From Streptomyces sp. LUP47B (GTDB lineage Bacteria; Actinomycetota; Actinomycetes; Streptomycetales; Streptomycetaceae): 64,000 nt of DNA. The position numbers and the translations under genes were made by a program. Positions 1-16,838 of this stretch are shown here, one piece after another (position 1 is the stretch's first letter; every line of letters begins with the position of its first letter). Location: the NCBI RefSeq assembly GCF_001746295.1, contig NZ_MJAH01000001.1:119192-183191 (forward strand). The letters run 5' to 3'. The notes under the pieces were generated by a model that worked only from the letters and a program-made list of their open reading frames with translations, had not been told where the DNA came from and did not search any database.

Positions 1-269
1 TGGTCGGGGGCGTCCTTGCCGAGCATGGTGTGGTGGATCGGGGTGGCCGGCCCGAAGTCGAGCTGTTGCGCGCTCAGGGTGGGGTTGCGGATCAGCCGGG
101 CGACGTCCTCGTAGCGGGAGACGACGTACAGGCCGACCGGATGCCTGTAGACAGGGTGCTCCTGCCGCAGCCGCGCGTAGTACGGGTACGGGTCCGCACG
201 GAAGCCGGGGTCACGGAAGGGCAGCAGATCCTCGGTGGCGGACGCGGGTCCGGCCGTGGTGACGGTCAT
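1..269 (-). CDS. Cytochrome P450, N-terminal part (runs off left edge)
   Basis: Only the first ~89 codons of this leftward gene are in the window. From the ATG at 269 the protein begins MTVTTAGPASATEDLLPFRD and continues with DPYPYYARLRQEHPVYR and VVSRYEDVARLIRN. This is the helix A/beta-1 signature of bacterial class I P450s (D-P-x-x-x-Y/F-x-x-L-R, then the W/Y-x-V-x-R-Y-x-D-V strand). The heme-binding cysteine and I-helix lie outside, so no subfamily can be given. It would receive electrons from a ferredoxin/reductase pair such as the one at 5239-6659. A palindrome shared with the ferredoxin/GS promoter region lies 86 bp upstream, so it is probably co-regulated with that cluster. The family assignment is fairly sure; the substrate is unknown. 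Confidence 0.8.
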   Translation of the reverse strand, partial: MTVTTAGPASATEDLLPFRDPGFRADPYPYYARLRQEHPVYRHPVGLYVVSRYEDVARLIRNPTLSAQQLDFGPATPIHHTMLGKDAPD

Positions 270-354
270 GTCGTGACACTCCTCGTATCGGGCGCGAGGC
301 GGAGGGAACTGGGGAGGAGAAGAGAGGGCGACCAGTGGGCCCTGCACCACCGAG

Positions 355-374
355 AATTATCCACGCGGATAATT
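355..374. promoter_or_regulatory. Palindromic operator, copy 1
   Basis: The sequence AATTATCCACGCGGATAATT has two perfect 8-base arms (AATTATCC / GGATAATT) around a 4-base centre. It lies upstream of the left-edge P450 and downstream of the tetR gene. A close copy (TATCC-ATGC-GGATA with similar AT flanks) is at 6822-6835 in the ferredoxin/GS promoter region. Size and symmetry fit a TetR-family operator; that the local TetR binds it is inference. Confidence 0.65.
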
Positions 375-427
375 TCGTCAATGCTTCGCGCGCACGTAAT
401 CAACTCTTTATGCCGCCGAAAACAGGC

Positions 428-456
428 GAGTCCCCGTCGCTGGGCGACGGGGACTC
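428..456 (-). terminator. Stem-loop terminator after tetR
   Basis: GAGTCCCCGTCG (428-439) and CGACGGGGACTC (445-456) pair perfectly over 12 bp around a 5-base loop. The hairpin lies about 40 bp past the tetR stop codon on the minus strand. Only a short T-run follows (TGTTTTC), which is common for actinomycete terminators. Confidence 0.7.
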
Positions 457-496
457 GTCCTGACCTGCCGTTATGGCAGGGGTTACGACATGGCGG

Positions 497-1099
497 CTAC
501 TCTGCGCCTTCACGCTGCCGGGTCAGCAGTGACCGCAGCTCCTTCAGCGCGGCCTCGGTGACGTCCGGCTCGTCGAGGACCAGCTGGTGCAGTACGAGAC
601 CCTCCAGAGCGGCGAAGACGAGCCGGGTCAGGGCAGGGCTGGTGCCGTCGGGCAGGCTGCGGGACAGCTCCCTCTCCGTGGCCTCGAAGTACTCCTCGTA
701 CAGCGCGCGGATCTGCGGCAGCAGCTCGGGCCTGCGCCGGGACTCGAGCATGAGCTCGTACTGGAACATCTGCATGGCCGGCTCGCGGGTGACCATGTCC
801 GCCAGTCCCGCCGCGAAGTCCGCGATGTCGCCCGTGCCGGGTTCCAGGGAGCTCGTGCGCGCGCTGGTGCGTACCGCGTGTTCGAGGGCTGCCTCGATCA
901 GTGCGTCCCGCGAACCGAAGTGGTGCACCACGAGCCCGTGCGTGACACCCGCCTCCTCCGCGACGGCACGATAGGTGAGCTTCCGCAGCCCGCCCCGGGC
1001 CACCACGCGCACGGCCGCGTTGAGCAGGGCCTCACGGCCGGTCCCGTAGTCCACGCGCTTGCGGGGCCTGGCGGGGGGCTTCTCGGAGGAATCGCTCAT
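497..1099 (-). CDS. TetR/AcrR family transcriptional regulator
   Basis: A 200-residue protein with a basic N-terminus and a typical TetR DNA-binding domain at about residues 22-68: helix 1 (GREALLNAAVRVVARGG), helix 2 (TYRAVAEEAGV) and the recognition helix THGLVVHHFGSRDALIEAAL. The rest is a helical ligand and dimer domain with no recognisable specificity. It is the last gene of the leftward run from the ferredoxin, 48 bp after the FAH-family gene, and is followed by a hairpin. It is the natural candidate to bind the TATCC-N4-GGATA palindromes at 355-374 and 6822-6835, with a pathway intermediate as inducer. The family is certain; the target is inferred from position. Confidence 0.88.
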   Translation of the reverse strand: MSDSSEKPPARPRKRVDYGTGREALLNAAVRVVARGGLRKLTYRAVAEEAGVTHGLVVHHFGSRDALIEAALEHAVRTSARTSSLEPGTGDIADFAAGLADMVTREPAMQMFQYELMLESRRRPELLPQIRALYEEYFEATERELSRSLPDGTSPALTRLVFAALEGLVLHQLVLDEPDVTEAALKELRSLLTRQREGAE

Positions 1100-1147
1100 G
1101 GACGCGACCCTACCCGCGCGTCGGGACCGGCAGACCGCCCAGGGGCG

Positions 1148-1993
1148 TCATCGCTTCGGCGGACGGATGCCGCGGAACTCCCAGTCGCCGCCGAGCGCGG
1201 TGGACAGCACCTCCTCCGATTCGGTGGGCTGGGCGCCGACGTCGGTGCGGATGGAGGTGGGGCCGGTGACGATGTGGTTGGTGAGGCGGCCCAGGCCCTC
1301 GACCTCGACCTCGACGACATCGCCCGGCTGTACGGGGCGGGAGTTGGCGGGGGTGCCTGACAGCAGGACGTCGCCGGGGTACAGGGTGATGGTGCGGGCG
1401 ATATCGGCGACGAGATAGTGCATGTCCCACTTCATCTCGTCGGTCGAACCGTCCTGGACCACCTTTCCATTGACGTAGGTGCGCAGGCTCTTGCCGTGGA
1501 AGTCCCAGTCGGTGACCAGGCCGGGGCCGAGCGGGCAGAGCGTGTCGGAGCCCTTGACCCGGAGCATGGAGCCGGCGTCGGTGTCGCGGAAGTCGTGCAA
1601 TCCGTAGTCGTTGGCGATCGTGTATCCGGCGATGTACTCGCCCGCTTCGGCCGGGGAGATGTTGCGCGCGGTCTTTCCGATGACGATGGCCACCTCGCCC
1701 TCGTAGTTGAGCCACTTGCAGCCCTCGGGGCGGACGATGGCGCCCTTGTGCGAGTTGAGGGCCGAGGTCGGCTTGTGGAAGTAGGTGGGCGTGTCGGGGA
1801 GGTCGATATCGAACTCGTCGACACGGCTGCGGTGGTTGAGATGGACCGCGATGACCTTGGAGGGGACGACCGGGGGCAGGTGCTGGGCGTCCTCGGTCTT
1901 GACGCGGCGGCCGTCCGCGGCGACGAGTTCGTCACCGTCGACGGTGACCTGGACGGCGGCGCCGTCGAGGAGGATGCGGCGGTATTCGGGCAT
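1148..1993 (-). CDS. FAH-family isomerase/decarboxylase (HpaG-like)
   Basis: A 281-residue fumarylacetoacetate-hydrolase-fold enzyme. After a ~55-residue N-terminal segment come SKVIAVHLNHRSRVDEF, the metal-binding NYEGEVAIVIGK (two acidic ligands) and the Asp of IAGYTIANDYGLHDF, then YPGDVLLSGTP and VQPGDVVEVEVEGLG. These match HpaG-type 5-oxopent-3-ene-1,2,5-tricarboxylate decarboxylase/2-hydroxyhepta-2,4-diene-dioate isomerases and related 4-oxalocrotonate decarboxylases. It would act in the cytosol on the product of the aldehyde dehydrogenase upstream in the operon. The ATG at 1993 has AGGAG about 8 bases upstream. Related enzymes also hydrolyse acylpyruvates, so the exact reaction is inferred from the neighbouring extradiol dioxygenase. 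Confidence 0.85.
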   Translation of the reverse strand: MPEYRRILLDGAAVQVTVDGDELVAADGRRVKTEDAQHLPPVVPSKVIAVHLNHRSRVDEFDIDLPDTPTYFHKPTSALNSHKGAIVRPEGCKWLNYEGEVAIVIGKTARNISPAEAGEYIAGYTIANDYGLHDFRDTDAGSMLRVKGSDTLCPLGPGLVTDWDFHGKSLRTYVNGKVVQDGSTDEMKWDMHYLVADIARTITLYPGDVLLSGTPANSRPVQPGDVVEVEVEGLGRLTNHIVTGPTSIRTDVGAQPTESEEVLSTALGGDWEFRGIRPPKR

Positions 1994-2003
1994 GGCAGTA
2001 CTC

Positions 2004-2939
2004 CTAGATACGGCTGTGAGGGCTGTGCGCGGAGGGGGCGGCGGGCAGGCCGGCGCCGGTCCAGCCATCGGCCGGGCGGTCGAACCAGAGGTGGACCTGG
2101 CCGGTGCCGATGGAGTTCTCGTACTCGCCGTACTGGCGGGCCTTGGCGACGCAGGCCTGTTCCCCGAGGGCACCGGCCATCATCAGGTAGTGGAAGAACT
2201 TCGCCTCGGGCCTGTACTTCGAGAACTCCGGCATGGTGTCGAGGACCTTGTCGTGGCGGCCCTCCTTGAACCAGGCGATCCGCTCGTAGTCGGCCTCGCG
2301 CGCCTCGGGCGTGAAGATGTGCACCGGGTCGCTCGACTCGTGGTCGCGCAGCTCGCGCAGCGGCCAGAAGGTGTGCGACAGCGCACCGGAGGCGATGACC
2401 AGGACCCGGCGGCCCGGGGTGGCGGCGATCCCGTCGGCCAGCGCCCGGCCCAGCCGCAGGTGGTCCTCCATGTCCCCGGTCTGACAGACCCCGATGGTCA
2501 CCCACCGCTTGTCCGGCAGCCCCTCCCCCAGGAACTTCCAGAGGTTGGTGGTGGCGTAGTAGATCGGCAGGTACTCGTCCTCGATCGCGGTGATCCAGGT
2601 CCCGTGCTTGTCGGCGAACTTCTCGATGTTGTGGGCCAATTCAGGATCACCGGGGAAGTCGTACGGCATCCGGCACATGCCGCGCGGTAGCTCCTCGGAG
2701 GTGAACAGACCGGCGCGGCGCTGCTGGGCTGTGACGACGAACTCGACGGTGGTCGCCCAGTGGGAGTCCAGGACGACGACGGTGTCGTAGTCGTCGCGCT
2801 CGAAGACGTCCTTGCGGAGCTGGTGCAGGCCGGTGACGAGGGTGATCTCCTTGCCCCCGTTCAGCTCCAGCCGGGTCTCCTCGGGCAGCACGATGGTGGG
2901 GACGTGGGCGAGGAGGCCCGCCCCGACGATCTCACCCAT
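2004..2939 (-). CDS. Class III extradiol ring-cleavage dioxygenase (HpaD-like)
   Basis: A 311-residue LigB-fold protein. Stretches recalling homoprotocatechuate 2,3-dioxygenase HpaD run through its length: LLAHVPTIVL with the first metal-ligand His, VVVLDSHWATT with the second, LFTSEELPRGM, YDFPGDPELAHNIEKFA, VIASGALSHTFW and SIGTGQVHLWF near the end. This family uses non-heme Fe(II), or sometimes Mn(II), to cleave a catechol ring next to the diol. A proline/serine-rich tail of about 12 residues follows. The gene overlaps the aldehyde dehydrogenase end by 8 bases. Homoprotocatechuate is the family precedent; an amino- or alkyl-substituted catechol is equally possible here. Confidence 0.88.
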   Translation of the reverse strand: MGEIVGAGLLAHVPTIVLPEETRLELNGGKEITLVTGLHQLRKDVFERDDYDTVVVLDSHWATTVEFVVTAQQRRAGLFTSEELPRGMCRMPYDFPGDPELAHNIEKFADKHGTWITAIEDEYLPIYYATTNLWKFLGEGLPDKRWVTIGVCQTGDMEDHLRLGRALADGIAATPGRRVLVIASGALSHTFWPLRELRDHESSDPVHIFTPEAREADYERIAWFKEGRHDKVLDTMPEFSKYRPEAKFFHYLMMAGALGEQACVAKARQYGEYENSIGTGQVHLWFDRPADGWTGAGLPAAPSAHSPHSRI

Positions 2940-4395
2940 GGTTGTTCCATCCGTTCGGCGAGGTCACGGTGTTCTTGAGGTCGCAGTAGAAGTCGAAGCT
3001 CCAGGTGCCGCCCTCGCGGCCGACGCCCGAGTGGCGGGAGCCGCCGAACGGCGCCTGCAGGTCGCGGACGAAGAAGCAGTTGGTCCAGACCGTGCCTGCG
3101 ACAAGCTGGGCGGTGACGCGTTCGGCGCGCTCGGGGTCACCGGTGGCGAGCGTGGCAGCCAGCCCGAAGCGGGTGTCGTTGGCGAGGCGGACGGCTTCGT
3201 CTTCGGTGGCGAAGGTCTGCAGGGTCAGGACCGGGCCGAAGACCTCCTCCTGCACGATCTCCGAGTCCTGGGCGACGGCGGTCAGGAGGGTCGGCGCGTA
3301 GTACTGGCCGTCCTTGCGGTGGCCGCCGATGACCGCGCGGGCACCGGCCGCCACGGCACGCTGCACGAAGCCGTCGATCTTCTCCAGCTGGAGCGGGTGG
3401 ATGTTCGGCCCGATGTCGGTAGCCTCGCCGCGCGGGTCGCCCTGGGTGAGCTGCCCGGCCTTCTCGACGAAGCGGCGGGTGAACTCCTCGGCGACCGACT
3501 CCTCGACCAGGAAGCGCGTCGCAGCCAGGCACACCTGGCCAGCGTTGTCGTACTGCTCCACCGCCAGGTCGACGGCCAGGTCCAGGTCCGCGTCGGCGAA
3601 CACCAACAGCGGCGACTTGCCCCCCAGTTCGAGACTCAAGGGCGTGAGGTTCGCGGCCGCCGACTCCGCGATCCGCTTGGCCGTGGGCACGGAGCCGGTG
3701 AAGCTGATCCGGCGCACGTCGGGATGCGAGGTCAGCGCGTCGCCGATCTCGGAGCCGTAGCCCTGGACGACGTTGAGCACACCTGCCGGGAGCCCGGCCT
3801 CGGCGGCGATGTCGGCCAGCAGGGAGGCAGTCAGCGGGGTCCACTCGGCGGGCTTGAGGATCACCGTGTTGCCGGCCGCGAGAGCCGGGGCGACCTTCCA
3901 AGTGGCCAGCATCAACGGGGCGTTCCACGGTGTGATCAGCACGGAGGGGCCCGCTGGGTCCCAGCTGACGTGGTTGGTGTGCCCGCGCGTCTCGAAGTCC
4001 TCGTGCTCCAGTTTCAGCAGCCAGTCCGCGAAGAAGCGGAAGTTGTGGGCGACGCGGGGCATGACGCCCCGGCGGTGGGAGCGCAGAAGGGCTCCGTTGT
4101 CGGTGGTCTCGACGATGGAGAGCTCTTCGATCCGCTTCTCGACCCCGTCGGCGATGGCGTGCAGGATGCGTGCGCGTTCCGCGCGGGAGGTGGCCGCCCA
4201 GGCGGGGAACGCGGCCTTCGCGGCGGCCACGGCGGCGGCTGCCTCCATGGCCGTGCCCCGGGAGATGCCGCCGATCGTGCTGCCGTCGATGGGCGAGACG
4301 TCCGGGAACGTCTGTGCCGAGGCGACGCGCTCGCCGCCGATCCAGTGCCGGGTGTCGACGGCGACCCCGGCAACGGTGATGGTGTGTTCGCTCAT
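2932..4395 (-). CDS. Aldehyde dehydrogenase (HpaE-like semialdehyde dehydrogenase)
   Basis: A 487-residue NAD(P)-dependent aldehyde dehydrogenase of usual length. Visible motifs are SVLITPWNAPLMLATWK (cofactor domain), the general-base Glu in LSLELGGKSPLL, the nucleophile Cys in NAGQVCLAATRF, and EEVFGPVLTLQTF. The ATG at 4395 has GGAGGAG 6 bases upstream and is preferred to upstream in-frame alternatives. In an operon with an HpaD-like dioxygenase and HpaG-like FAH enzyme, the expected role is oxidation of the ring-cleavage semialdehyde to the dicarboxylate, as HpaE does. ALDH substrate cannot be read from sequence, so this rests on context. Confidence 0.87.
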   Translation of the reverse strand: MSEHTITVAGVAVDTRHWIGGERVASAQTFPDVSPIDGSTIGGISRGTAMEAAAAVAAAKAAFPAWAATSRAERARILHAIADGVEKRIEELSIVETTDNGALLRSHRRGVMPRVAHNFRFFADWLLKLEHEDFETRGHTNHVSWDPAGPSVLITPWNAPLMLATWKVAPALAAGNTVILKPAEWTPLTASLLADIAAEAGLPAGVLNVVQGYGSEIGDALTSHPDVRRISFTGSVPTAKRIAESAAANLTPLSLELGGKSPLLVFADADLDLAVDLAVEQYDNAGQVCLAATRFLVEESVAEEFTRRFVEKAGQLTQGDPRGEATDIGPNIHPLQLEKIDGFVQRAVAAGARAVIGGHRKDGQYYAPTLLTAVAQDSEIVQEEVFGPVLTLQTFATEDEAVRLANDTRFGLAATLATGDPERAERVTAQLVAGTVWTNCFFVRDLQAPFGGSRHSGVGREGGTWSFDFYCDLKNTVTSPNGWNNHG

Positions 4396-4429
4396 GCTCT
4401 GCTCCTCCGGTCTCACGAGGTGGTGGGGT

Positions 4430-5236
4430 CTACTCGGCGCCGGAGGTGCCGGATTCCAGCAGTCGGCCGCCGTCCCAGACGACGCCGACCTGGCGGTAGT
4501 AGGCGGCGATCGGCTCGCGGATCTCCAGGCGGGCCAGTTCTTCGGTGGGCGCCTCGAACAGCTCCAGCTCGGCGTCGCCGCGCCAGGCCTGTCCCGCCTC
4601 GAAGGACGCGGCGCCCGACTCGATCAGCTCGTCCAGAGCGAGGCCCTTGCCCTTCTCGATGGAGGGCAGCCAGCGGTGGTGGGCCATCGAGTGGGCGTTG
4701 ACGAAGCCGTTCGTCTGCGACGGCTCGCGCAGGGTGACCGTGGTCTGGGCCAGGCGCCGGTCGGCGGCGGCGAGCGTGGCGCCGAAACGGGCCCCCGCCT
4801 CGATGCGCGGCGCGGGGCCGTACGGGTGCGGGCGGGTCTGGTGGATCGAGCCGAGCTTCTTCGGGTAGCCCTGGTGCAGGCCGCGGGCGATGGCGAAGTC
4901 CTTGTCGACCCAGATGTAGACGCACCGCGAGTACGTCTGGCCCCGGTACTTGCAGCGGACGACCGCGAACGCCTCCTTGTACTGGGAGAGCACGGGATCG
5001 AGCAGCTCCTCGCCGGACGCCGAGCAGGACTGCCAGTCGGCCCAGATCAGCGCCACCGCGCCCGGGTCCTCGTCGGCGAGCTCCAGTGGCTCGGGAAGCA
5101 GTTCACGCACGCGCGCCGGGTCGGTGCGGTACTCGACGGTGAGCAGGTCCCCGGAGTACCGCCAGGGCGGTGAGGGGACCAGCGACGAGGCACCGCTCGC
5201 CGTCTTGGGGAAGAAGAATCCGTGAACAGTGTTCAT
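4430..5236 (-). CDS. Acetoacetate decarboxylase-fold enzyme
   Basis: A 268-residue protein of the acetoacetate decarboxylase (ADC) superfamily. LVPSPPWRYSGDLLTVEYRT at the N-terminus and LHQGYPKKLGSIHQTRP mid-protein carry the family signature; the paired lysines of PKK correspond to the ADC Schiff-base lysine and the neighbour that lowers its pKa. Some superfamily members are hydratases or aldolases that form a pyruvate Schiff base rather than decarboxylases. The gene overlaps the reductase stop region and lies in the ring-cleavage operon, where no hydratase (HpaH) or aldolase (HpaI) is visible. A role in that lower step is therefore plausible but unproven. Confidence 0.8.
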   Translation of the reverse strand: MNTVHGFFFPKTASGASSLVPSPPWRYSGDLLTVEYRTDPARVRELLPEPLELADEDPGAVALIWADWQSCSASGEELLDPVLSQYKEAFAVVRCKYRGQTYSRCVYIWVDKDFAIARGLHQGYPKKLGSIHQTRPHPYGPAPRIEAGARFGATLAAADRRLAQTTVTLREPSQTNGFVNAHSMAHHRWLPSIEKGKGLALDELIESGAASFEAGQAWRGDAELELFEAPTEELARLEIREPIAAYYRQVGVVWDGGRLLESGTSGAE

Positions 5237-5238
5237 GA

Positions 5239-6468
5239 TCAGCGAAGTCCTTTGGCGGTGAGGGCGGGCTGCTCGAGCAGTTCGGCGCGGTATCGGGAGG
5301 CGGCGGCCACCGCGGCCGGACCGCCAAGGGCGACGACACCGGCCAGTCGGCCGCCGGCGTGGTAGCCGACGACGACATCTCCGTCGAGGTCGCCGTCCAG
5401 GACCCGTACGTCCTCCTTGCCGAGTACCGGTGCGCCGAAGGACTGCAGGCGGAAGTCGTGCTGGTCGCTCCAGAAAGTGGGCAGCGGCGCGAACGGGGAC
5501 AGGCCGTGGCTGGTGCCGGCCAGCTGGGCGACGAGGGTCTTCGCGGCGTGCTTGGCGGTGTCCGTGGGGATGCACCAGTGCTCCACACGGCGTGGTACGC
5601 CGTCGTAGCGGGCGTTGGGGAAGCGGGCGACGTCGCCGACGGCCACCACGTCGGGCCGTCCGCCGGCGCGCAGGTGCTCGTCGGTGAGCACGCCGTCGCT
5701 CAGGTCGAGGCCGTTGCCGTCCAGCCACTCGGTGTTGGCGACCGACCCGACCGACTCGACCACCACGTCGGCGGGAAGGACGGTGCCGTCGCCGAGGGCA
5801 ACGCCGGTGACGTGGTCGTCGCCGGTGAAGCCGGTCACGCCCGTGCCGAGGGCGAAGCGCACGCCGCGCTCCTCGTGGCGCTTCAGCAGGACCCTGGCGA
5901 GGAGCTCGCCGAGGGGGCCGACCATCGGCAGGGGCAGCGGGTCGACGACCGTCACCTCCCGGGCGCCCAGAGCGAGGGCGGTGGCGGCGACCTCGCAGCC
6001 GATGAAGCCGCCTCCGACGACGACCACGCGGGCTCCGGGCCTGGTCAGGGCCTGCCGCAGACCCTGCGCGTCGTCGATGGTGCGGACCGTGTGCCGGCCC
6101 GCGAGCGGGCCGGGGCAGCGCAGGCGCCGGGGCCGCATTCCGGTGGCGACGACCAGACCGTCGTAGGAGAGTGCCTCGCCGCCGTCGAACTCGACGATGT
6201 TCTCCGCGAGCCGGGTGGCGACGACCTTGGCGCCCAGCCGCCATTCCGCATCGGCCACACTCGCCCGCGGGCGGAAGGCGAGTGACTCGAAGGGTGCCTT
6301 GCCGGCCAGAACCTCCTTGGACAGGGGCGGCCGGTTGTAGGGCATGTGCGGCTCGTCACCGACGAGGGTGATGGCTTCGGTCCAGCCGGCGGCCCGCAGC
6401 TGCTCGGCCGCGCGCAGGCCGGCCATGGAGGCGCCGGCCACGACGATGCGTGCACTCCGCGAAGTCAT
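5239..6468 (-). CDS. NAD(P)H-dependent ferredoxin reductase (FAD)
   Basis: A 409-residue flavoprotein of the putidaredoxin-reductase type. The N-terminal FAD motif is RIVVAGASMAGLRAAEQL, the central NAD(P) motif is VVVVGGGFIGCEVAATAL, and DVVAVGDVARFPN is the second FAD-binding stretch. Length and order match P450-linked reductases. It starts 2 bases after the ferredoxin stop, so the two are translated together and very probably form the electron chain NAD(P)H to FAD to Fe-S to P450. The likely partners are the P450s at 8364-9650 and 1-269. Confidence 0.9.
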   Translation of the reverse strand: MTSRSARIVVAGASMAGLRAAEQLRAAGWTEAITLVGDEPHMPYNRPPLSKEVLAGKAPFESLAFRPRASVADAEWRLGAKVVATRLAENIVEFDGGEALSYDGLVVATGMRPRRLRCPGPLAGRHTVRTIDDAQGLRQALTRPGARVVVVGGGFIGCEVAATALALGAREVTVVDPLPLPMVGPLGELLARVLLKRHEERGVRFALGTGVTGFTGDDHVTGVALGDGTVLPADVVVESVGSVANTEWLDGNGLDLSDGVLTDEHLRAGGRPDVVAVGDVARFPNARYDGVPRRVEHWCIPTDTAKHAAKTLVAQLAGTSHGLSPFAPLPTFWSDQHDFRLQSFGAPVLGKEDVRVLDGDLDGDVVVGYHAGGRLAGVVALGGPAAVAAASRYRAELLEQPALTAKGLR

Positions 6469-6470
6469 GG

Positions 6471-6659
6471 TCAGCCCTCGATACGGATGGCCTGGAGCGG
6501 ACACACATCGGCGGCTTCCTCGACCTCGTCGCGCAGCGCGTCGTCGGGGTCGGGGACGTAGGCCAGGTGACCGCTGTCGTCCATGGAGAAGACATCGGGT
6601 GCGGCGAAGACGCACTGGCCGTGGTCCTGGCACTTGTTCATGTCGACGACGACCTTCAT
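6471..6659 (-). CDS. Small P450-type ferredoxin, probably [3Fe-4S]
   Basis: A 62-residue acidic ferredoxin. It starts MKVVVDMNKCQDHGQCVFAA and ends with ADVCPLQAIRIEG. Only three cluster cysteines are visible, C10 and C16 (C-x5-C) plus the C of C-P; the fourth cysteine of 4Fe-4S ferredoxins is absent. This is typical of the [3Fe-4S] ferredoxins that serve actinomycete P450s. It is first in the leftward operon, with its promoter in the divergent region 6660-6978. Confidence 0.92.
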   Translation of the reverse strand: MKVVVDMNKCQDHGQCVFAAPDVFSMDDSGHLAYVPDPDDALRDEVEEAADVCPLQAIRIEG

Positions 6660-6775
6660 GGCCGGTCCTCCTGAATGTGAGGGCGTCGGGGCGGGGACGA
6701 GCGGAGGGAGAGGGGCCCGACCGGCGTCGGCCGGGCCCCGGCCAAAGGTCCGGCAACTGACCGAACCCTTACTCA

Positions 6776-6790
6776 TTTGGCTTCAAACAA
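6776..6790. repeat. TTTGGC box, copy 1 (ferredoxin side)
   Basis: TTTGGCTTCAAACAA differs at one of 15 positions from the copy at 6883-6897 and has the same orientation. The core is a weak dyad (TTTG-N4-CAAA). It is likely a regulator site for the leftward promoter; the protein is unknown. Confidence 0.5.
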
Positions 6791-6820
6791 CATAGGAAGC
6801 CGCCCGACCCTGGTCAATAC

Positions 6821-6839
6821 CTATCCATGCGGATAATTT
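6821..6839. promoter_or_regulatory. Palindromic operator, copy 2
   Basis: CTATCCATGCGGATAATTT contains the dyad TATCC-ATGC-GGATA with the same 4-base spacing as 355-374. Over the 16-bp core TTATCCACGCGGATAA it differs at two positions. It sits almost midway between the two TTTGGC boxes. Confidence 0.65.
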
Positions 6840-6882
6840 TTTTCCTGCCGCCCCTTGCGGGGTACTCGAAGTCCTCATACCG

Positions 6883-6897
6883 TTTGGCATCAAACAA
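6883..6897. repeat. TTTGGC box, copy 2 (GS side)
   Basis: TTTGGCATCAAACAA, with the preceding G, forms a clean dyad GTTTG-GCAT-CAAAC. It pairs with the copy at 6776-6790 and lies about 80 bp upstream of the GS-like start. Confidence 0.5.
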
Positions 6898-6978
6898 GCT
6901 ATTCCTGCCGCGCCCCCACCCGTACCGGCCCTCTGAATCCCCTCACCATCCACACGCCTAGCGCCCGAGGAGACATCG

Positions 6979-8346
6979 GTGAGCGCAGACCCAACCCCCA
7001 GCCTCCGTCAGCACATGCAGCGACTCGCCGCCGACGGCATCGACGTGGTGCGCGTGACCTATCCCGACCTGATCGGCACCGACCGAGCGCGCGACGTGCT
7101 GTTGGACCACCTGCCGTCGGCCTGCGACCACGGCCTGGCCTTCTGCCGGGCCGTGTACCACACCAGCCCCCAGGGCCACGTGGTGCCCGTCTCCGGAGGT
7201 CTCGACGCCGGCCTGCCCGACATCACCGTGCGACCGGACCTGGACACCCTGGTCCCCCTCCCCTGGGAACCCGGCGTCGCCTCCTGCCTCGCCGACGTCA
7301 CCGACCCGGCCACCGGCCTGCCCGCGCCCGAGTCACCCCGCGATCTGCTGCGCACCGTCCTCGACCGATGTGCCGAACACGGCCTGCGTCCGGTGGTCGG
7401 CCCCGAGCTCGAGTACTTCCTCTGCGCCGAGGACCCGGCCTCCCCGAGCGGCTGGAAGCGTTACTCGAGTGCCACCGGCGTCGTCTACACCGCCGGTCTG
7501 CGCGCCGACGGCGACAATCACCTGCTCCGCACGCTGCGTCTGCTGCGGGACATGAACATCGGCGTGACCAGCGGAAACCACGAGTTCGACGGCAGCCAGT
7601 TCGAGATCAACCTCACCCACTCCGACGCCCTGTCCGCCGCGGACCGCGCCTTCCGCTTCAAGTCCGCGATCAAGGAACTGGCCCGGCAGGAGGGCAAACT
7701 CGCCACCTTCATGGCCAAGCCGTTCAACGACGCCGGAGGCTCCGGTTTCCACCTCCACCTGTCCTGCGACAGCTCCTCCGACGAGGAAGGCGCCGGTAAC
7801 TCCTTCGACGATCCCGCCGGGCCGTACGGACTGTCCGCCACCGCACGCCACGCCGTCGCCGGCATCCTCGCCCACGCCCCGGCCCTGGCCGCACTGGCCA
7901 ACCCGACCGTGAACTCCTACCGGCGTTTCGGCCCGGACACCCTCGCCCCCTGGCTGATCGACTGGGGCCTGGACAACCGCAGCGCCATGATCCGCATCCC
8001 GCCCGAGCGCGGCTCCGGCGCCCGGTTCGAACTGCGCCTCGGTGACGCCAGCGCCAACCCGTATCTGCTGATCGCGGGCACGGTCGCCGCCGCACTGCTC
8101 GGGGTTCTGACCGGCGAGGAACCCCCCGCCCCGCTGGAGGGGTACGGCTACGACACTGCCAAGGCAGCCATGCTGCCCATGAACCTGCCGGCCGCGCTCG
8201 ACGCCCTGGAAGCGGACACGGAGCTGACCGACATCCTCGGCAAGGACTTCACCGCCTCGTTCCTCTCCTACAAGCGCAACGAAATCGAACGCTTCCAACG
8301 GCACGTCACCGACTGGGAGTTCACCGAGTACGCCTACCACCTGTGA
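6979..8346 (+). CDS. Glutamine synthetase-like gamma-glutamyl ligase
   Basis: A 455-residue protein of the GS superfamily, probably ATP-dependent gamma-glutamylation of an amine rather than ammonia. Visible motifs are VVGPELEYFL (metal-binding Glu), GNHEFDGSQFEINL, GSGFHLHLS (ATP/metal), NSYRRFGPD and RSAMIRIPP. The pattern resembles PuuA/IpuC-type gamma-glutamylamide synthetases and the non-housekeeping actinomycete GlnA paralogues. The GTG at 6979 has GAGGAG 6 bases upstream. It is translationally coupled to a P450 and divergent from the ring-cleavage operon, so an amine or aniline-type substrate or intermediate is likely. Which one cannot be read from the sequence. Confidence 0.85.
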   Translation: MSADPTPSLRQHMQRLAADGIDVVRVTYPDLIGTDRARDVLLDHLPSACDHGLAFCRAVYHTSPQGHVVPVSGGLDAGLPDITVRPDLDTLVPLPWEPGVASCLADVTDPATGLPAPESPRDLLRTVLDRCAEHGLRPVVGPELEYFLCAEDPASPSGWKRYSSATGVVYTAGLRADGDNHLLRTLRLLRDMNIGVTSGNHEFDGSQFEINLTHSDALSAADRAFRFKSAIKELARQEGKLATFMAKPFNDAGGSGFHLHLSCDSSSDEEGAGNSFDDPAGPYGLSATARHAVAGILAHAPALAALANPTVNSYRRFGPDTLAPWLIDWGLDNRSAMIRIPPERGSGARFELRLGDASANPYLLIAGTVAAALLGVLTGEEPPAPLEGYGYDTAKAAMLPMNLPAALDALEADTELTDILGKDFTASFLSYKRNEIERFQRHVTDWEFTEYAYHL

Positions 8347-8363
8347 CGACTGGGAGCCATGCG

Positions 8364-9650
8364 ATGACGACCGAGACACCGACCGCCGCCGTGAACGAAC
8401 CGATGCCACTGGCAGACGTCAACCTCGCCGATCTGGACAACTTCACCGACGGCATCACCCCATGGCGCATGTTCCACACCCTGCGCCACCAGGACCCGGT
8501 GCACTGGCAGCCCGAGGACGCCCCCAACTCCGGCTTCTGGGCCGTGACCCGCCACGCCGACATCGCCCGCGTCGACCGTGACGCCGAGACCTTCACCTCC
8601 ACGAAGTTCGTCAACCTCGAAGAGGTCGACGAGGATCAGATCAAGACCCGCGCCTCCATCCTGGAGCTGGACGGTGTCCGCCACCGCGCGCTGCGCAGTC
8701 TGCTTCAGCGCCAGTTCGGCGCGAGCGTCATCAACAGCTACACCGACTTCCTGCGTGGCCTGACCGCCACCACGCTGGACGCGGCGCTGGCCAAGGGGAC
8801 CTTCGACTTCGTCAAAGAGATCTCCGCCGACTTCCCCATCAACGTCCTCGCCCGCCTCCTCGACGTACCGCCGGAGGACAACCAGCAGCTCATCGACTGG
8901 GGCAACCGCATCATCGGCAACACCGACCCCGACTACGCCGATGTCCTGCTGGACAGCGCGGAGAGCGAGCAGTACCGGCACCTGCCCTTCCGCTCCCCTG
9001 CCTCGCTGGAGGTCTTCGAGTACGGCCGTGAGCTGGCCCGGCAGCGGCGCGGCGGCGACGGCACCGACCTGGTGTCGAAGCTGGTGAACACCATCCCGAA
9101 GGACGGTGTGCCGCTCTCGTCACAGGACTTCGACAACTACTTCCTGCTCCTCGTCGTGGCCGGCAACGAGACCACCCGCCACACCATCACCCACTCCATG
9201 CTGGCCCTCCTCCAGCACCCCGACCAGCTGGCCCGCCTCAAGGACGACCCGTCCCTGATCCCGGGCGCGGTCGAGGAGTTCCTGCGCTGGGCCTCCCCCG
9301 TCTACCACTTCCGCCGCACCGCCACCCAGGACGTCGAACTCGGCGGCAAGCGGATCAAGGAGGGCGACAAGGTCGTCATGTGGTACGCCTCCGGCAACCG
9401 TGACGAGGCGGCCTTCGGCAACCCGTACGACTTGGATGTCACCCGCGCCGACAACGACCACGTCACCTTCGGCAAGGGCAGCCCCCACCTGTGCCTGGGC
9501 AACCTGCTCGCCCGCACCGAGATCCGCATCATGTTCGAGGAGCTGATCCCCAGGATCGCCGACATCCGCCTCGTCGGCGATGTCCCGCGCGTCCGCTCCA
9601 ACTTCGTCAACGGCATCAAGAAACTACCCGTCGAAGTCACCCTCGCCTGA
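8364..9650 (+). CDS. Cytochrome P450
   Basis: A 428-residue bacterial P450. The I-helix is LLVVAGNETTRHTITHSM (acid/alcohol pair replaced by N-E-T-T), the K-helix ExxR is EEFLRWASPVYHFRR, and the heme loop is TFGKGSPHLCLGNLLARTE. The 11-residue F-G-x4-H-x-C-x-G spacing recalls the CYP124/125/142-like actinobacterial group. An in-frame GTG at 8343 overlaps the GS stop, but the ATG at 8364 has GGGAG at the right distance and is preferred. Being cotranscribed with the GS-like ligase suggests it oxidises the gamma-glutamylated compound or its free amine. It probably uses the 6471-6659 ferredoxin. Confidence 0.92.
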   Translation: MTTETPTAAVNEPMPLADVNLADLDNFTDGITPWRMFHTLRHQDPVHWQPEDAPNSGFWAVTRHADIARVDRDAETFTSTKFVNLEEVDEDQIKTRASILELDGVRHRALRSLLQRQFGASVINSYTDFLRGLTATTLDAALAKGTFDFVKEISADFPINVLARLLDVPPEDNQQLIDWGNRIIGNTDPDYADVLLDSAESEQYRHLPFRSPASLEVFEYGRELARQRRGGDGTDLVSKLVNTIPKDGVPLSSQDFDNYFLLLVVAGNETTRHTITHSMLALLQHPDQLARLKDDPSLIPGAVEEFLRWASPVYHFRRTATQDVELGGKRIKEGDKVVMWYASGNRDEAAFGNPYDLDVTRADNDHVTFGKGSPHLCLGNLLARTEIRIMFEELIPRIADIRLVGDVPRVRSNFVNGIKKLPVEVTLA

Positions 9651-9723: not shown

Positions 9724-10378
9724 TCAAGCGAACTCCGTCTCGAGGATTGCAACGATGACCGATTTCAGGTTGGCGAAGCCGTGCTCGACGGCGGCGCGTT
9801 CGCGGTTGAGCAGGCGGTTCGCTTCTCTCTCCGCGTCGGTGAGCTGGTGGTTGCGGGTGGCCTTGCGGCCGGTGATGATCACCGGGTGGTCGTCGGGGTC
9901 GTCGTCCAGGCCGACGAGTCCGAGATCGGCCAGGGCTCCGAGACCGGCCTCGCGCAGGTGTCCGGTGATCTTGTTGTGGCGGGCGGTGGTGATCTCGCTG
10001 GACCGGCCCGGCTTCGCCGCCGGGATCCAGATCACGTTGCCTTGCTCGTCGGTCAGCGCGAGAAACAGCAGGCCATGGGACCTGTGTTTGCCGCTGTAGT
10101 TCTTCCGGTTGTCCTTCCCGGTGCGGCGCCGGGTGCGGATGAGGGCCGCCCAGCAGGACCACGACCCCGCCGGCACGGGCGATCTTCTTCAGCGCGCGGT
10201 CCAGGCGCGGGGCGCGGGCGAACAGCAGGCGGATCACTTCCATCACCCAGCGGCGCACGGTGGAGGCGGAGACCGCGTTGCCGCCGGCCATGTCGGCAAG
10301 ACGCTGGTCGTGACGGAGCACGGCGAGCACGATGACCGCCTGGGTTCCGGAACTGACCTTGCGCCAGCGGGTTTGCAC
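9724..10378 (-). pseudogene. Decayed DDE transposase (IS5-group) fragment
   Basis: On the minus strand, transposase-like sequence continues across a frameshift near 10160. One frame holds SSGTQAVIVLAVLRHDQRL and STVRRWVMEVIRLLFARAP; the other holds HGLLFLALTDEQGNVIWIPA, GALADLGLVGLDD and NRERAAVEHGFANLK up to the stop at 9724. This is the C-terminal two-thirds of a DDE_Tnp_4/IS5-type transposase. The N-terminus is missing, and the first catalytic Asp appears replaced (VVVLLGG where VVLDG is usual). It abuts and truncates the gene at 10379-10827. It is inactive. Confidence 0.7.
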
Positions 10379-10827
<449 letters not shown>

Positions 10828-10988
10828 CAGGAGGCTATGCAGCGGCCCGCTGCCCCGGCCCCGGGAATCCCAGAGGCCGCCCGTGACGGACGATCACGTG
10901 CTAACGATCTCTCGCCCGACCAGCACGAGAACCCCGCGGAGACCTCACACCAGCCCTGCTGACCAGCGGAAATCAGGATGGCAGATCT

Positions 10989-13539
<2,551 letters not shown>

Positions 13540-13543
<4 letters not shown>

Positions 13544-15273
13544 GAGGCCAGCTCTCCCTTCAGTAGGAGCGCGACGACCGTGCGGTCCCGGTCGCTGACC
13601 CGGCCCAGCGCGGCATTCCAGGCGGCTGGGCCCACTCTGTCGCGCATGTCGTTCAGGCGTAGCAGGTGGTCGTGCCAGCGCGCCGTCCAGGTGTGATCGG
13701 GCAGCACCGAGCGAAGGCTCATCAGTTGCTGATGCAGATGGGCGAGGCGGGGGTGGTGACCGGGGTGGACATGGGCGTTGCCGCAGGCCAGGCAGAGTAG
13801 GAAGTCCGCTGCGCAGCCCCCGTCCGGGGCGGGCCAGGGGCTGGTGGTGTCGTCCTCGCAATCGGCCGTCGCGGTCTCGTGATGCGCGGGGTTCGGCTCA
13901 CGTGCGAGGTGTCCGCCGAAGACGGTTGCCTGCGCTTGCTGGAGTGCTTCGTGGGCGCCGGCTTCGAAGACTGCTTGGGATGCTCGCTGGACTCGCTGGT
14001 CGGGCAGCACGTAGACGCTCTCGTGGGTGCCCTGGGTGTGCTGCATGGGTCTGCCCTCGCGGGTGACCGTCGTGCGCCTGGTGCGTTGGAACGGCGATCC
14101 GCTCAGCCCGTGGCTTCGAGCCCAGCTGGTGGCGTCGACACGGGAGACACCGAAGACCAGGGGGCCGATGCGTGGTGGGCGATCCAGATCGCGGCGCTCG
14201 CGCCCGACTTGTTGCAGGCGTGCGGTCATCAGCAGGTCGGTGCCGGGGGCCAGCTTCGCGGCGAGCGCGCGGCCGTGTGCGGTGGCGTCCAGGGCCTGTG
14301 TGATCAGACGTCCCGGGGAGGCGGCTCCCGAGTCGGTGATGTTCTCCGTGCTGAACCACCGGCCCGCCCCGGGTCGTCGCTTCTCCACCTGCACCAGGTA
14401 TGTCACCGTCGTCCTCTCACCAACCGACGGCGCACGGGTGGGCGCGGGCATGCGGTCGTAGACGGACAGATTCCAGGCAAAGCGGTCGGTCAGCAGCACG
14501 GCCAGGGCAGTCAGCTCGTGCCGGGTCAAGAACAGCCGGCCCCACGTTCGTTCGACGCTGCCCCCGCCGAGGAGACCACGGTGCCTCAGGTTGGTCAGGC
14601 CATCGCTCCGCCGTGCGCGGGGCACGTCTCCGGTGCACGCGATCACGTCGAGGATCTGGCCGAGCTGCGCTTCATGGCTGCCTTCGGGCAGTTGCCCGAG
14701 CCGCCAGCGCTCCAGGACGATGGTGTTGTCCCGGATGCGCATCCAGGCGGCGCGGAACTGGCGCTGCGCGGTGAGTAGCACTTGCTCGCGTTCCGCATCC
14801 TCGTACGACTGCTTGCTCGGCGTTCCCTGTGGCACCCGGCGGGCGAGCTCTTCGGCCACTTGGCCGGTGTGCAGCCTCGGGTCCGCGCGTAGCAGGACCC
14901 GAATGGTGGCCAGCGTGATCCTGCCCGTGTTGGTCTTGATGTTCCGCTCGCGCCAGCGTTTCAGGGCGGCGGCGGTCAGGCCGTCGAGATCCTGAGGCGG
15001 GTTGTCCAGGCGGGAAAGGAAGCGCACGAAGACCAGCAGTTGGTTCCAGTAGTGGTCGGCGGAGGAGTGGCTCGTCCACCGACGGGACTGGGCAGCAAAG
15101 AGCGCGGCCAGCGAGTGCTGCATACGCTCTGGGGCGGGCAGCTTCGCGAAGTCGAACTCCTTCTTCTCGCCGGCCTTGTTGCCTACCGTCACTACCAGTC
15201 CGTCCAGGGGACGCGGCGGTCCGGTGCGATAGTCGGCCGGCGGCAACACGGCCCTCCGTCCCCGCCCGCTCAT
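13540..15273 (-). CDS. Degenerate tyrosine recombinase-like protein (middle of trio)
   Basis: A 577-residue protein lying between two clearer recombinases and overlapping both by 4 bases. A core-binding-like region (SADHYWNQLLVFVRFLSRLD, LTAAALKRWRERN) is followed by LTALAVLLTDRFAWNLSVYD where catalytic Arg I would be. No G-x-R-x-x-E box is present there. FQRTRRTTVTREGR and MQHTQGTHESVYVL correspond to the HxxR and Tyr regions, with only the Tyr kept. The C-terminus has CLACGNAHVHPGH, a possible Cys/His metal site. It is probably a structural member of the recombination complex rather than a catalyst; that is inference. Confidence 0.65.
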
Positions 15274-16838
15274 CCGGTCACCCTGAGCAGCGTGTCGACG
15301 TCCTGGATGCCGGCCGTCTCCCGAGCCAGCCGGGTGAACACGTCGTCGATGCCCTCGCCTCCCACCGCGCCCTGGCCGTCGGTGATCTCAGCAGTGGCGA
15401 GGATGGACTCCAGCTGCAGGTGCGCGACGGGCGCGAGGTAGTGGCGCTTGGTCACCTCCACGTCCGCGTGCCCGAGGAGGGTCTTCACCAACCACCAGGG
15501 GTCGCCGAACAGCAGCGCGAAGTCCCGCCGGTCTGCCGCGGTGAGCCCGTAGCGGGTCTCCATGAGCTGGTTCAGCACGATGAGCATGTAGAGCGCGAAT
15601 GAGTGCCGCGCGGCGTGAGGGGTCGCGTAGGGACTCTTCCCGCGGACATCTGCCAGCCGCAGCTCCCGCTTGACCACCCGCTCCGCCGGGGCGAGCAGCA
15701 CCTCGTCGCAACGCAGATTCGCGCTCCTGAACACGCCGTTCCACCGGCCCGGGAGCATCGGAAGCCCTTGCTCGGTCAGCCACAACCAGGCCGGCTCGGG
15801 CCCTTCCGGGCCATCCAGGAAGAGCCACTGACGCTCTCGCCAGCCCAGCAGACCAAGCTCGCGGCCCCCAGCGACGCCGTCCCGGTCTACCCACTCGACC
15901 TTCGGCTTCGGGCCACGGGTCACTTTCGTGAGCAGCCGAATCTCAGGCAGCCGCTCGTAGCGGCCCGCGGCCTGAGCGCGCTGTACTGCCCAGGCCCGCT
16001 CGGACGCCACATACGCTTCGACCTGACCGACCGCATCGACCGAGGCGTAGAAGACTCGCCCGCACTTCGACCTGGTGACGGCGCCCGCGACCCGGCCGTG
16101 GCAGTACCGGCCGGAGCGAAGCCGCTGGGTCGGAACCTCGAATGTCAGCAGCGCCCCGCCCTCCTGCCGGCGAAGTCCGGAACTAAGGAGCAGTTGCACG
16201 AAACTGGTGTTCCGCAGCTCCGTCCGCGCATCCCAACCCGGTGCAGCGCCCCCGCCAGCCGCGTGACCGCGCAGTCCGATGTCCGACCACAGGGCCCAGG
16301 TCCGCGGCGTCAGCCACGACACCCGTGCGCTGACCGAGTCCGGGGCCCGGTCCTCCCGGCGGGAGAGGTCGACAGGCAGCGGAGAGACCTTCGCCCAGCG
16401 GAACAGCTTGGTGAACGCGGCTCCCTCCCGGTTCCACTTCGTACCGCTGATTCGCTCCGGATTTGCCGGCGCCGAGCAACGCCAGTCTCGGTAATCGGCC
16501 AGGTCCTGTTCACTCGCCTGGCGCCACGGCACGCCGCGGGAGGACAGAAATTCCAGTAACAGACGAATGTCGGTGGCGTAGTTGCGCTTTGATTCCGGCT
16601 CCAGATTTCGGAACGCCTTGGAGCGAACGAAGTCCAACAGGTCCGCATCGATCATGCCGTCCGGCCCTACGAAGACCGGATCCCCCGGACGAAGCCCGAT
16701 TCGGGCGACCGCCTCCGGCAGGTCCCCGACGCCGAGAACCCCCTCCGCGGGCATCGTCCCCCACCGCCCCGGGTCCGGGACCCTGGCCACGTACCACGCC
16801 CTCAACAGGCACCTCCCCTGAAGCTTGAACTCGCTCAA
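15270..16838 (-). CDS. Tyrosine recombinase/integrase (first of trio)
   Basis: A 522-residue site-specific recombinase with a full catalytic set: QLLLSSGLRRQEGGALL (Arg I), TPHAARHSFALYML (HxxR), and VKTLLGHADVEVTKRHYLAP (second His and the Tyr nucleophile). The N-terminal SAM-like domain is seen in ESKRNYATDIRLLLEFLSSR. The ATG at 16838 lies at the junction with the truncated CoiA-like gene; an internal ATG at 16754 (MPAEGVLGVGDL) could be the real start. It heads a four-gene overlapping operon that ends at 10989. The family is certain; the target site is unknown. Confidence 0.85.
   Translation of the reverse strand: MSEFKLQGRCLLRAWYVARVPDPGRWGTMPAEGVLGVGDLPEAVARIGLRPGDPVFVGPDGMIDADLLDFVRSKAFRNLEPESKRNYATDIRLLLEFLSSRGVPWRQASEQDLADYRDWRCSAPANPERISGTKWNREGAAFTKLFRWAKVSPLPVDLSRREDRAPDSVSARVSWLTPRTWALWSDIGLRGHAAGGGAAPGWDARTELRNTSFVQLLLSSGLRRQEGGALLTFEVPTQRLRSGRYCHGRVAGAVTRSKCGRVFYASVDAVGQVEAYVASERAWAVQRAQAAGRYERLPEIRLLTKVTRGPKPKVEWVDRDGVAGGRELGLLGWRERQWLFLDGPEGPEPAWLWLTEQGLPMLPGRWNGVFRSANLRCDEVLLAPAERVVKRELRLADVRGKSPYATPHAARHSFALYMLIVLNQLMETRYGLTAADRRDFALLFGDPWWLVKTLLGHADVEVTKRHYLAPVAHLQLESILATAEITDGQGAVGGEGIDDVFTRLARETAGIQDVDTLLRVTG

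Follow-up and report, generated by a model that had tools for sequence, protein, structure and literature searches.

Four described systems come closest to the gene island examined here, which opens a 64,000-nucleotide stretch of the genome of Streptomyces sp. LUP47B (contig NZ_MJAH01000001.1; hereafter the window), is cut by the window start and continues for about 14 kb leftward on the same contig. With the Puu pathway the island shares a glutamine synthetase (GS)-fold ligase, a PuuC-like dehydrogenase, a PuuD-like hydrolase and a permease, and by prediction also two compounds named as Puu-pathway intermediates in the consulted part of PMC10135574, namely 4-(gamma-glutamylamino)butanal and gamma-glutamyl-gamma-aminobutyrate (gamma-Glu-GABA). 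It differs in that its aldehyde would arise from ring cleavage of an aromatic amine, that its PuuA-, PuuC- and PuuD-like proteins all score under the Puu cut-offs, and that no PuuB-type FAD oxidase was present among the Pfam-scanned island genes, where the sole DAO match is below cut-off and lies within the ferredoxin reductase. With the Hpa homoprotocatechuate pathway it has in common an HpaD/HpaE/HpaG-like core and a MarR regulator weakly similar to HpaR (45.6 bits vs 46.1 for OhrR), but the enzymes fall below the equivalog cut-offs, an ADC-fold protein would take the place of HpaH and HpaI, and a GS-type ligase, a cytochrome P450 and a hydrolase are additional. AtdA1-type aniline degradation likewise links a GS-like ligase and an amidotransferase-like protein to an oxygenase (PMC4539516, consulted in part); in the island, however, the oxygenase is a P450 and not a Rieske dioxygenase, the glutamyl cap is predicted to outlast ring cleavage, and the substrate would be an arylethylamine and not an arylamine. 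Lastly, the meta-cleavage cluster of the S. solfataricus phenol pathway (Sso1221/1222) contains ADC/MppR-related proteins for which an aldolase role was proposed and two of which were induced 77- and 82-fold on phenol (PMC7820114, in part), whereas that pathway includes neither an amine nor a ligase, and in the part of the source at hand the aldolase role is a proposal.

Judged from sequence comparison, we consider it reasonably probable that the conserved island degrades 2-arylethylamines of the tyramine/dopamine type, with a gamma-glutamyl cap kept on the amine through an Hpa-type ring cleavage. The broader proposition, that Actinomycetota and at least one alphaproteobacterium degrade catecholamine-type arylethylamines as gamma-glutamyl conjugates which converge on gamma-Glu-GABA, with a single ADC-fold enzyme acting as both hydratase and aldolase, we regard as evenly poised. 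In the open-licence literature (without subscription papers and preprints) no description of this combination was found; the component families are known ones and, as far as could be searched, the assembled route lacks a prior description. A first-pass annotation of the window had outlined an amine that is gamma-glutamylated, oxidised by a P450 and meta-cleaved, which fits the gene set and its conservation; the substrate it suggested, an amine-bearing aromatic or a cyclic amine, is here refined to, most likely, a 2-arylethylamine over an aniline or a cyclic amine. All genes it had named, i.e., P450s, ferredoxin, reductase, ligase, Hpa-like enzymes, ADC-fold protein and TetR, are present. The features within the window are as follows (negative numbers used further below denote positions on the same contig left of the window, and G000:C1 denotes contig positions):

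1..269, minus strand, P450 #1 (PF00067), N-terminal 89 amino acids inside the window; whole gene -927..269 = G000:C1:118264-119460, 398 amino acids
357..372, TetR-type operator-like palindrome TTATCCACGCGGATAA before P450 #1
497..1099, minus strand, TetR1 regulator (PF00440/PF17940)
1148..1993, minus strand, FAH-fold putative decarboxylase/isomerase, HpaG C-terminal-like (PF01557; TIGR02303)
2004..2939, minus strand, LigB-type extradiol dioxygenase, HpaD-like (PF02900; TIGR02298)
2932..4395, minus strand, ALDH1, HpaE-like semialdehyde dehydrogenase (PF00171; best family TIGR02299)
4430..5236, minus strand, ADC-fold enzyme, MppR-like (PF06314; best family TIGR04460, MppR)
5239..6468, minus strand, FdR, FAD ferredoxin reductase (PF07992, PF14759)
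6471..6659, minus strand, Fd, single-cluster ferredoxin with CxxHxxC...CP, 62 amino acids (PF13370)
6776..6788, MarR-type operator-like site TTTGGCTTCAAAC between Fd and GS
6821..6836, second TetR-type operator-like site CTATCCATGCGGATAA, two mismatches, in the Fd/GS promoter
6883..6895, second MarR-type operator-like site TTTGGCATCAAAC between Fd and GS
6979..8346, plus strand, GS-fold predicted gamma-glutamyl-amine ligase (PF00120)
8364..9650, plus strand, P450 #2 (PF00067)

The ALDH1 and dioxygenase genes overlap by 8 bases, P450 #2 begins 17 bases behind the ligase gene, and the ferredoxin carries three cysteines and one histidine (C10-H13-C16...C53).

FAH, LigB, ALDH1, ADC, FdR, Fd, GS and P450 #2 were taken as the core eight. 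LigB was detected at E<=1e-60 in 65 of 391 Streptomycetales genomes. Of 40 Streptomycetales loci, 29 had all eight core genes clustered, with an identical order in 27; among the remaining loci, seven (54-58% LigB identity) had no other core gene and L050, L052, L053 and L054 a partial set. Within a set of named loci (the best 80 of 414, all Streptomyces but one Kitasatospora) the complete core was found in 70 of 80, together with ALDH2 and the PuuD-like gene in 64 of 80, and TetR1 was present in 61 of the 67 named loci with full flanks. Presence in named and distant loci was scored at a minimum of 30% identity and half coverage (40% for the amino-acid permease, 50% for ALDH2), and several of the 38 contigs from outside the order are short, which makes absences there weak. 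LigB matched 29 of 394 genomes drawn from other families of the class, same-genus relatives included. In the 20 LigB-bait loci outside the order it was accompanied by FAH and ALDH1 in all 20, by GS, P450 #2 and ADC in 16 each, by a PuuD- or GATase-type hydrolase and MarR in 15 each, and by an LLM oxidoreductase in 13. The ADC bait matched 24 of 296 genomes across the phylum, and the resulting 18 loci revealed FAH (17), GS (13), P450 #2 (12), the hydrolase (9), LigB (7), ALDH1 (7) and MarR (5). Furthermore, a plasmid of the alphaproteobacterium Novosphingobium harbored a 2Fe-2S protein, two aldehyde dehydrogenases, FAH, ADC, GS, P450, LigB and an annotated MarR within 10.5 kb, and a linear plasmid of Streptomyces canus carried 31.5 kb of the region at 98.5% identity. 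The neighbors, whose conservation the first-pass annotation had put forward for checking, are thus kept together in these Streptomycetales and named loci, largely in distant Actinomycetota and in one alphaproteobacterium, and the simplest inference would be that the gene set is inherited, and at times moved, as a unit.

The shared operators noted earlier proved to be real, as two sites each of the TetR-type and the MarR-type motif occur in the window, and a third TetR-type copy with two mismatches was located at -10156 in the divergent TetR2/GcvT promoter. Fd-GS intergenic regions were obtained from 72 of the 80 named loci; the form TTTGGCNTCAAAC with at most one mismatch was found in all 72 of them versus 0 of 360 base shuffles, and the TetR-type motif, up to three mismatches being allowed, in 65 of 72 versus 1 of 360. 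In its Streptomyces form TTTGGCNTCAAAC the MarR operator showed no clear enrichment in the distant loci (21 sites vs 14.8 expected). The general palindrome GTTYGGNNNCRAAC yielded 89 sites in 20 distant loci vs a Markov-resampling expectation of 15.2; 70 of the 89 lay outside matched genes, and 18 of the 20 loci were represented. This enrichment is partly post hoc, since the general form was picked after viewing sites from the TTTGGCNTCAAAC scan. Its sites precede, among others, permease, LLM, ADC, ALDH1, hydrolase, GS, P450 and MarR genes. The conserved palindromes suggest one regulon, in which MarR and TetR would bind the operator-like sites; the regulon around a single TetR described in the first-pass annotation is retained as to the shared sites, yet the MarR gene extends further across relatives than TetR.

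Comparison of the ring-cleavage enzymes with NCBIfam models revealed scores of 212.5 bits for FAH against TIGR02303 (HpaG-type; cut-off 276.4), 123.1 bits for LigB against TIGR02298 (HpaD; cut-off 315.95) and 519.5 bits for ALDH1 against TIGR02299 (HpaE; cut-off 638.35), all below the cut-offs, as expected if the side chain of the substrate is not a carboxylate. The nearest solved chain of LigB is 8iq8, a 3,4-dihydroxyphenylacetate 2,3-dioxygenase, and of the residues which we take to be functional, H60, H189 and E245 are invariant in nine orthologues and H12 in the eight with an aligned N-terminus. The ADC-fold protein scored 174.3 bits against TIGR04460 (MppR), below the cut-off of 380, and its nearest solved relatives are MppR (PDB 4jm3) and kin (6eej/4zbo, 5upb); its Lys126 aligns with Lys156 of MppR and Lys122 of 6eej, presumably the Schiff-base lysine of the ADC fold. 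Searches for HpaH and HpaI, the hydratase/aldolase families covered, gave 0 matches in the genome at E<=0.001, and of 14 control genomes, 4 and 1, respectively, gave matches in the same searches, all of them under the cut-off. We therefore propose the ADC-fold protein as a putative hydratase/retro-aldolase. In the 4-hydroxyphenylacetate pathway the aldolase step leads to pyruvate and succinic semialdehyde, and an HpaE-type enzyme can also oxidise the latter (PMC12718150, consulted in part). When the CH2-COOH side chain is swapped for CH2-CH2-NH-gammaGlu, succinic semialdehyde becomes 4-(gamma-glutamylamino)butanal, i.e., a PuuC substrate, and it is mainly because this predicted aldehyde fits the PuuC/PuuD-like pair that an arylethylamine is named here.

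This pair, the permease and the MarR gene lie left of the window:

-3920..-2511, amino-acid permease
-5527..-4037, ALDH2, PuuC-like aldehyde dehydrogenase, overlapping the PuuD-like gene by 4 bases
-6246..-5524, Peptidase_C26/PuuD-like putative gamma-glutamyl hydrolase
-13873..-13382, MarR, whose orthologue carries a MarR annotation on the S. canus plasmid

The Peptidase_C26 match had suggested the Puu link, and the PuuC test for ALDH2 was set before its result. The best NCBIfam family of ALDH2 is PuuC (568.4 bits, cut-off 850; next family 485), and that of the hydrolase is gamma-Glu-GABA hydrolase (82.1 bits, cut-off 266). Within Streptomycetales, a linked ALDH2 occurs in a further family as well (L054, 61%). 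The ligase scored 290.8 bits against TIGR03105 (cut-off 469.6) and 247.2 bits against GGputSyn (cut-off 650). It retains the GS catalytic motifs; the FDGSS and FEAP motifs, which are present in the genome's own GlnA (L155) used as reference, are gone in the ligase as well as in two distant orthologues. Of the genome's own GS loci compared, GlnA and L160 aligned sensibly with the cluster proteins, and the comparison uses GlnA. We take FDGSS to be the ammonia-site motif and FEAP the flap motif with the flap glutamate.

Assembled, the route would begin with import of the amine by the permease and conversion of tyramine by the ligase to gamma-Glu-tyramine, which P450 #2 with ferredoxin and reductase would hydroxylate on the ring to gamma-Glu-dopamine. 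LigB would then cleave the capped catechol in the 2,3-extradiol manner, ALDH1 would oxidise the ring-fission semialdehyde, FAH would decarboxylate and isomerise the product, and the ADC-fold protein, replacing HpaH and HpaI, would hydrate it and split it by retro-aldol cleavage into pyruvate and 4-(gamma-glutamylamino)butanal. ALDH2 may oxidise the latter to gamma-Glu-GABA, from which the PuuD-like hydrolase would release GABA and glutamate. The glutamyl cap is probably retained while the ring is cleaved, and it would also prevent a condensation between the amine and the ring-fission aldehyde. Depending on the strain, this core may be fed by decarboxylases (amino acid to amine), by VanA-type demethylases and by the P450 #1/GcvT-PurU-FolD module.

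As to these feeders, genes for pyridoxal phosphate-dependent decarboxylases were detected by tblastn in 8 of 20 LigB-bait loci, a weak match in L192 (36%) being counted, and in 5 of 18 distant ADC-bait loci; PF00282 was confirmed in all three proteins scanned, and in several distant loci the gene lies directly behind the ferredoxin reductase. Profiles built from five and from two decarboxylase sequences had PDB 4obu, presumably the R. gnavus tryptophan decarboxylase, as best structure with 275.6 and 291.8 bits, 33 and 59 bits above the next. VanA-type genes were found in 4 of 20 distant loci, with PF19112 and a Rieske domain confirmed in L202. Plasmid pSLUN1 of S. lunaelactis carries permease, ligase, MarR, ADC, PuuD, ALDH2, ALDH1, LigB, FAH and a PF00282 protein, and no match to P450 #2, Fd1 or FdR was found in 28.8 kb, nor to P450 #2 plasmid-wide at E<=1e-80. 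A version that has a PF00282 gene and in which this P450 was not found is as expected if the amino acid used is already a catechol.

Several observations weigh against the proposed degradation of capped arylethylamines. None of the NCBIfam equivalogs matched by core proteins reaches its cut-off, unlike PurU and FolD of the optional module, so that each substrate is assigned by inference. An isomerase of the HpaF type was not recognised in the scanned genes, the genome as a whole lying outside that scan. At a minimum of 50% identity ALDH2 was found in 0 of 20 LigB-bait and 0 of 18 ADC-bait loci outside the order, where the aldehyde step would fall to ALDH1 or to an enzyme encoded elsewhere, and the Novosphingobium stretch gave no match to a PuuD- or GATase-type hydrolase. 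P450 #2, present at E<=1e-150 in 55 of 58 LigB genomes (those of Streptomycetales, leaving out the genomes of the seven 54-58% LigB loci), is absent from 3 of 58, and its nearest solved relatives are an ancestral CYP125-type enzyme and CYP124. As regards the decarboxylase, neither the window's own island nor the majority of loci has it, and three PF00282 genes lie elsewhere in the genome; a single sequence leaves its substrate ambiguous (DOPA decarboxylase 199, desferrioxamine-type 199 and 4obu 197 bits), its best NCBIfam match is diaminobutyrate decarboxylase, and the PF00282 protein of pSLUN1 is divergent (89.5 bits). Finally, the LLM oxidoreductase, the 301-amino-acid protein Unk301, the SpoIIE-type protein and a family of 511-516 amino acids described below have no role in the proposed route.

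The GATase-type proteins that adjoin the ligase in many distant loci also bear on an aniline-like function, in which a ring-attached amine would be gamma-glutamylated and oxygenated with loss of the cap, meta-cleavage then acting on the free catechol alone, as in AtdA-type systems. A GS-like ligase, a glutamine-amidotransferase-like enzyme and an oxygenase do make up the known aniline set (PMC4539516, as far as consulted), but no Rieske dioxygenase domain was found in the Pfam-scanned genes of the window's island, the enzymes resemble HpaE and HpaG and not the plain catechol type, and a PuuC/PuuD-like pair in the same island and decarboxylase genes in related loci stand beside them, which makes this reading unlikely. 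CYP125/CYP124-type enzymes are aliphatic hydroxylases, and mycobacterial piperidine/morpholine operons combine genes for GS, a CYP151-type P450 and a ferredoxin. Both speak for a GS and P450 that open or oxidise a cyclic or aliphatic amine, the extradiol genes serving a separate aromatic under the same regulator; as P450 #2 and GS accompany the ring-cleavage genes in most loci and in two phyla, with common palindromes, we regard this as distinctly improbable. Slightly more doubtful still is a biosynthetic function, i.e., extradiol cleavage of a DOPA-type compound toward a natural product with a pyrrole or pyridine ring: on pSLUN1 the set is bordered by NRPS genes, and the 54-58% LigB homologues stand in another context, with genes that by eye are HpaB-like and AsnB-like, but the island possesses a complete oxidation, decarboxylation and hydrolysis chain with a permease, its MarR is weakly HpaR-like, and it is present in genomes of 1.3-1.9 Mb. 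That two unrelated islands became neighbors by chance is hardly credible. The island does have transposase and integrase genes at its edges, and some loci differ in gene order, but most rearranged loci retain most genes, operator-like sites are common to both parts, and the synteny contradicts it.

GcvT-FolD-PurU one-carbon cassettes occur in nicotine and sarcosine degradation. In the island a GcvT-like gene, purU and folD are likewise adjacent, but here the cassette is linked to an XplA-like P450 and not to a flavin oxidase domain. The I-helix of this P450 #1 reads AVGHLDVKH (XplA: AVGHMAIGY), by which the usual acid-threonine pair is presumably replaced, suggesting a possibly unusual oxygen chemistry. 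Over nearly its full length P450 #1 matched PDB 8q5j with 862.7 bits, followed by XplA with 334.6; the consulted part of PMC11355015 identifies 8q5j as a P450 from Streptomyces scabiei. Of the 58 LigB genomes, 7 had P450 #1 and 8 had the GcvT-like gene, all 7 being shared and one genome having the GcvT-like gene only (exact test 2.7e-8, uncorrected for kinship). P450 #1, the second ferredoxin and GcvT-PurU-FolD are thus an optional, probably demethylating module outside the core, and of the two P450s that had been annotated as one set, only P450 #2 belongs to the core. The TetR-type palindrome before P450 #1 and in the Fd/GS and TetR2/GcvT promoters would tie this module to the same control. 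The remaining features are:

-1181..-969, second ferredoxin
-2293..-1370, F420-type LLM oxidoreductase
-7159..-6254, Unk301, 301-amino-acid protein
-10099..-7239, opposite strand, FolD, PurU and GcvT-like protein
-10893..-10210, second TetR (TetR2)
between TetR2 and MarR, SpoIIE-type protein
9724..10176, DDE transposase remnant (PF13359), right edge of the island

The stretch 9724..16838 with the transposase remnant and three long open reading frames (ORFs), the last with phage-integrase domains, closes the island rightward; on the S. canus plasmid, two ORFs from this block carry an integrase annotation. A GGCTCC hexamer repeat at about 10583-10636 corresponds to a Glu-Pro run within the minus-strand ORF 10243..10827. 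More than 50 kb to the left, a second pair of amino-acid permease and GS-like ligase (G000:C1:64252-67037; L004:3061-5846) is possibly another gamma-glutamylation system. In Streptomyces loci with LLM (L064, L039 and others) an RbsA-like ABC transporter and an amidohydrolase-like gene follow LLM, as seen by eye. The LigB homologues of 54-58% identity in L055-L061 come without other island genes, and in L055, L056, L059 and L061 HpaB-like and AsnB-like genes were seen by eye beside them, perhaps a natural-product cluster. Two LigB-type extradiol enzymes (L247:21386-22360 and L248:14001-14858) are publicly annotated as catechol 1,2-dioxygenase, a label that looks wrong. The family of 511-516 amino acids (L198:12622-14163, also in L195, L200 and L202) adjoins the ferredoxin reductase or decarboxylase in distant loci and had no Pfam match (L198) and no NCBIfam match (L198, L195).

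If true, the route would merge the Puu and Hpa textbook routes into one, and it would explain the function that a family of GS-like ligases, one of ADC-fold proteins and one of P450s have in many actinobacteria of soil and freshwater. It would also show that an amine is chemically protected while the ring is opened, supply direct substrates to test, and bear on how microbes remove tyramine, dopamine and related plant amines from soil. As read from its genes, the island likely lets actinobacteria consume dopamine- or tyramine-like amines, and it is sometimes plasmid-borne.

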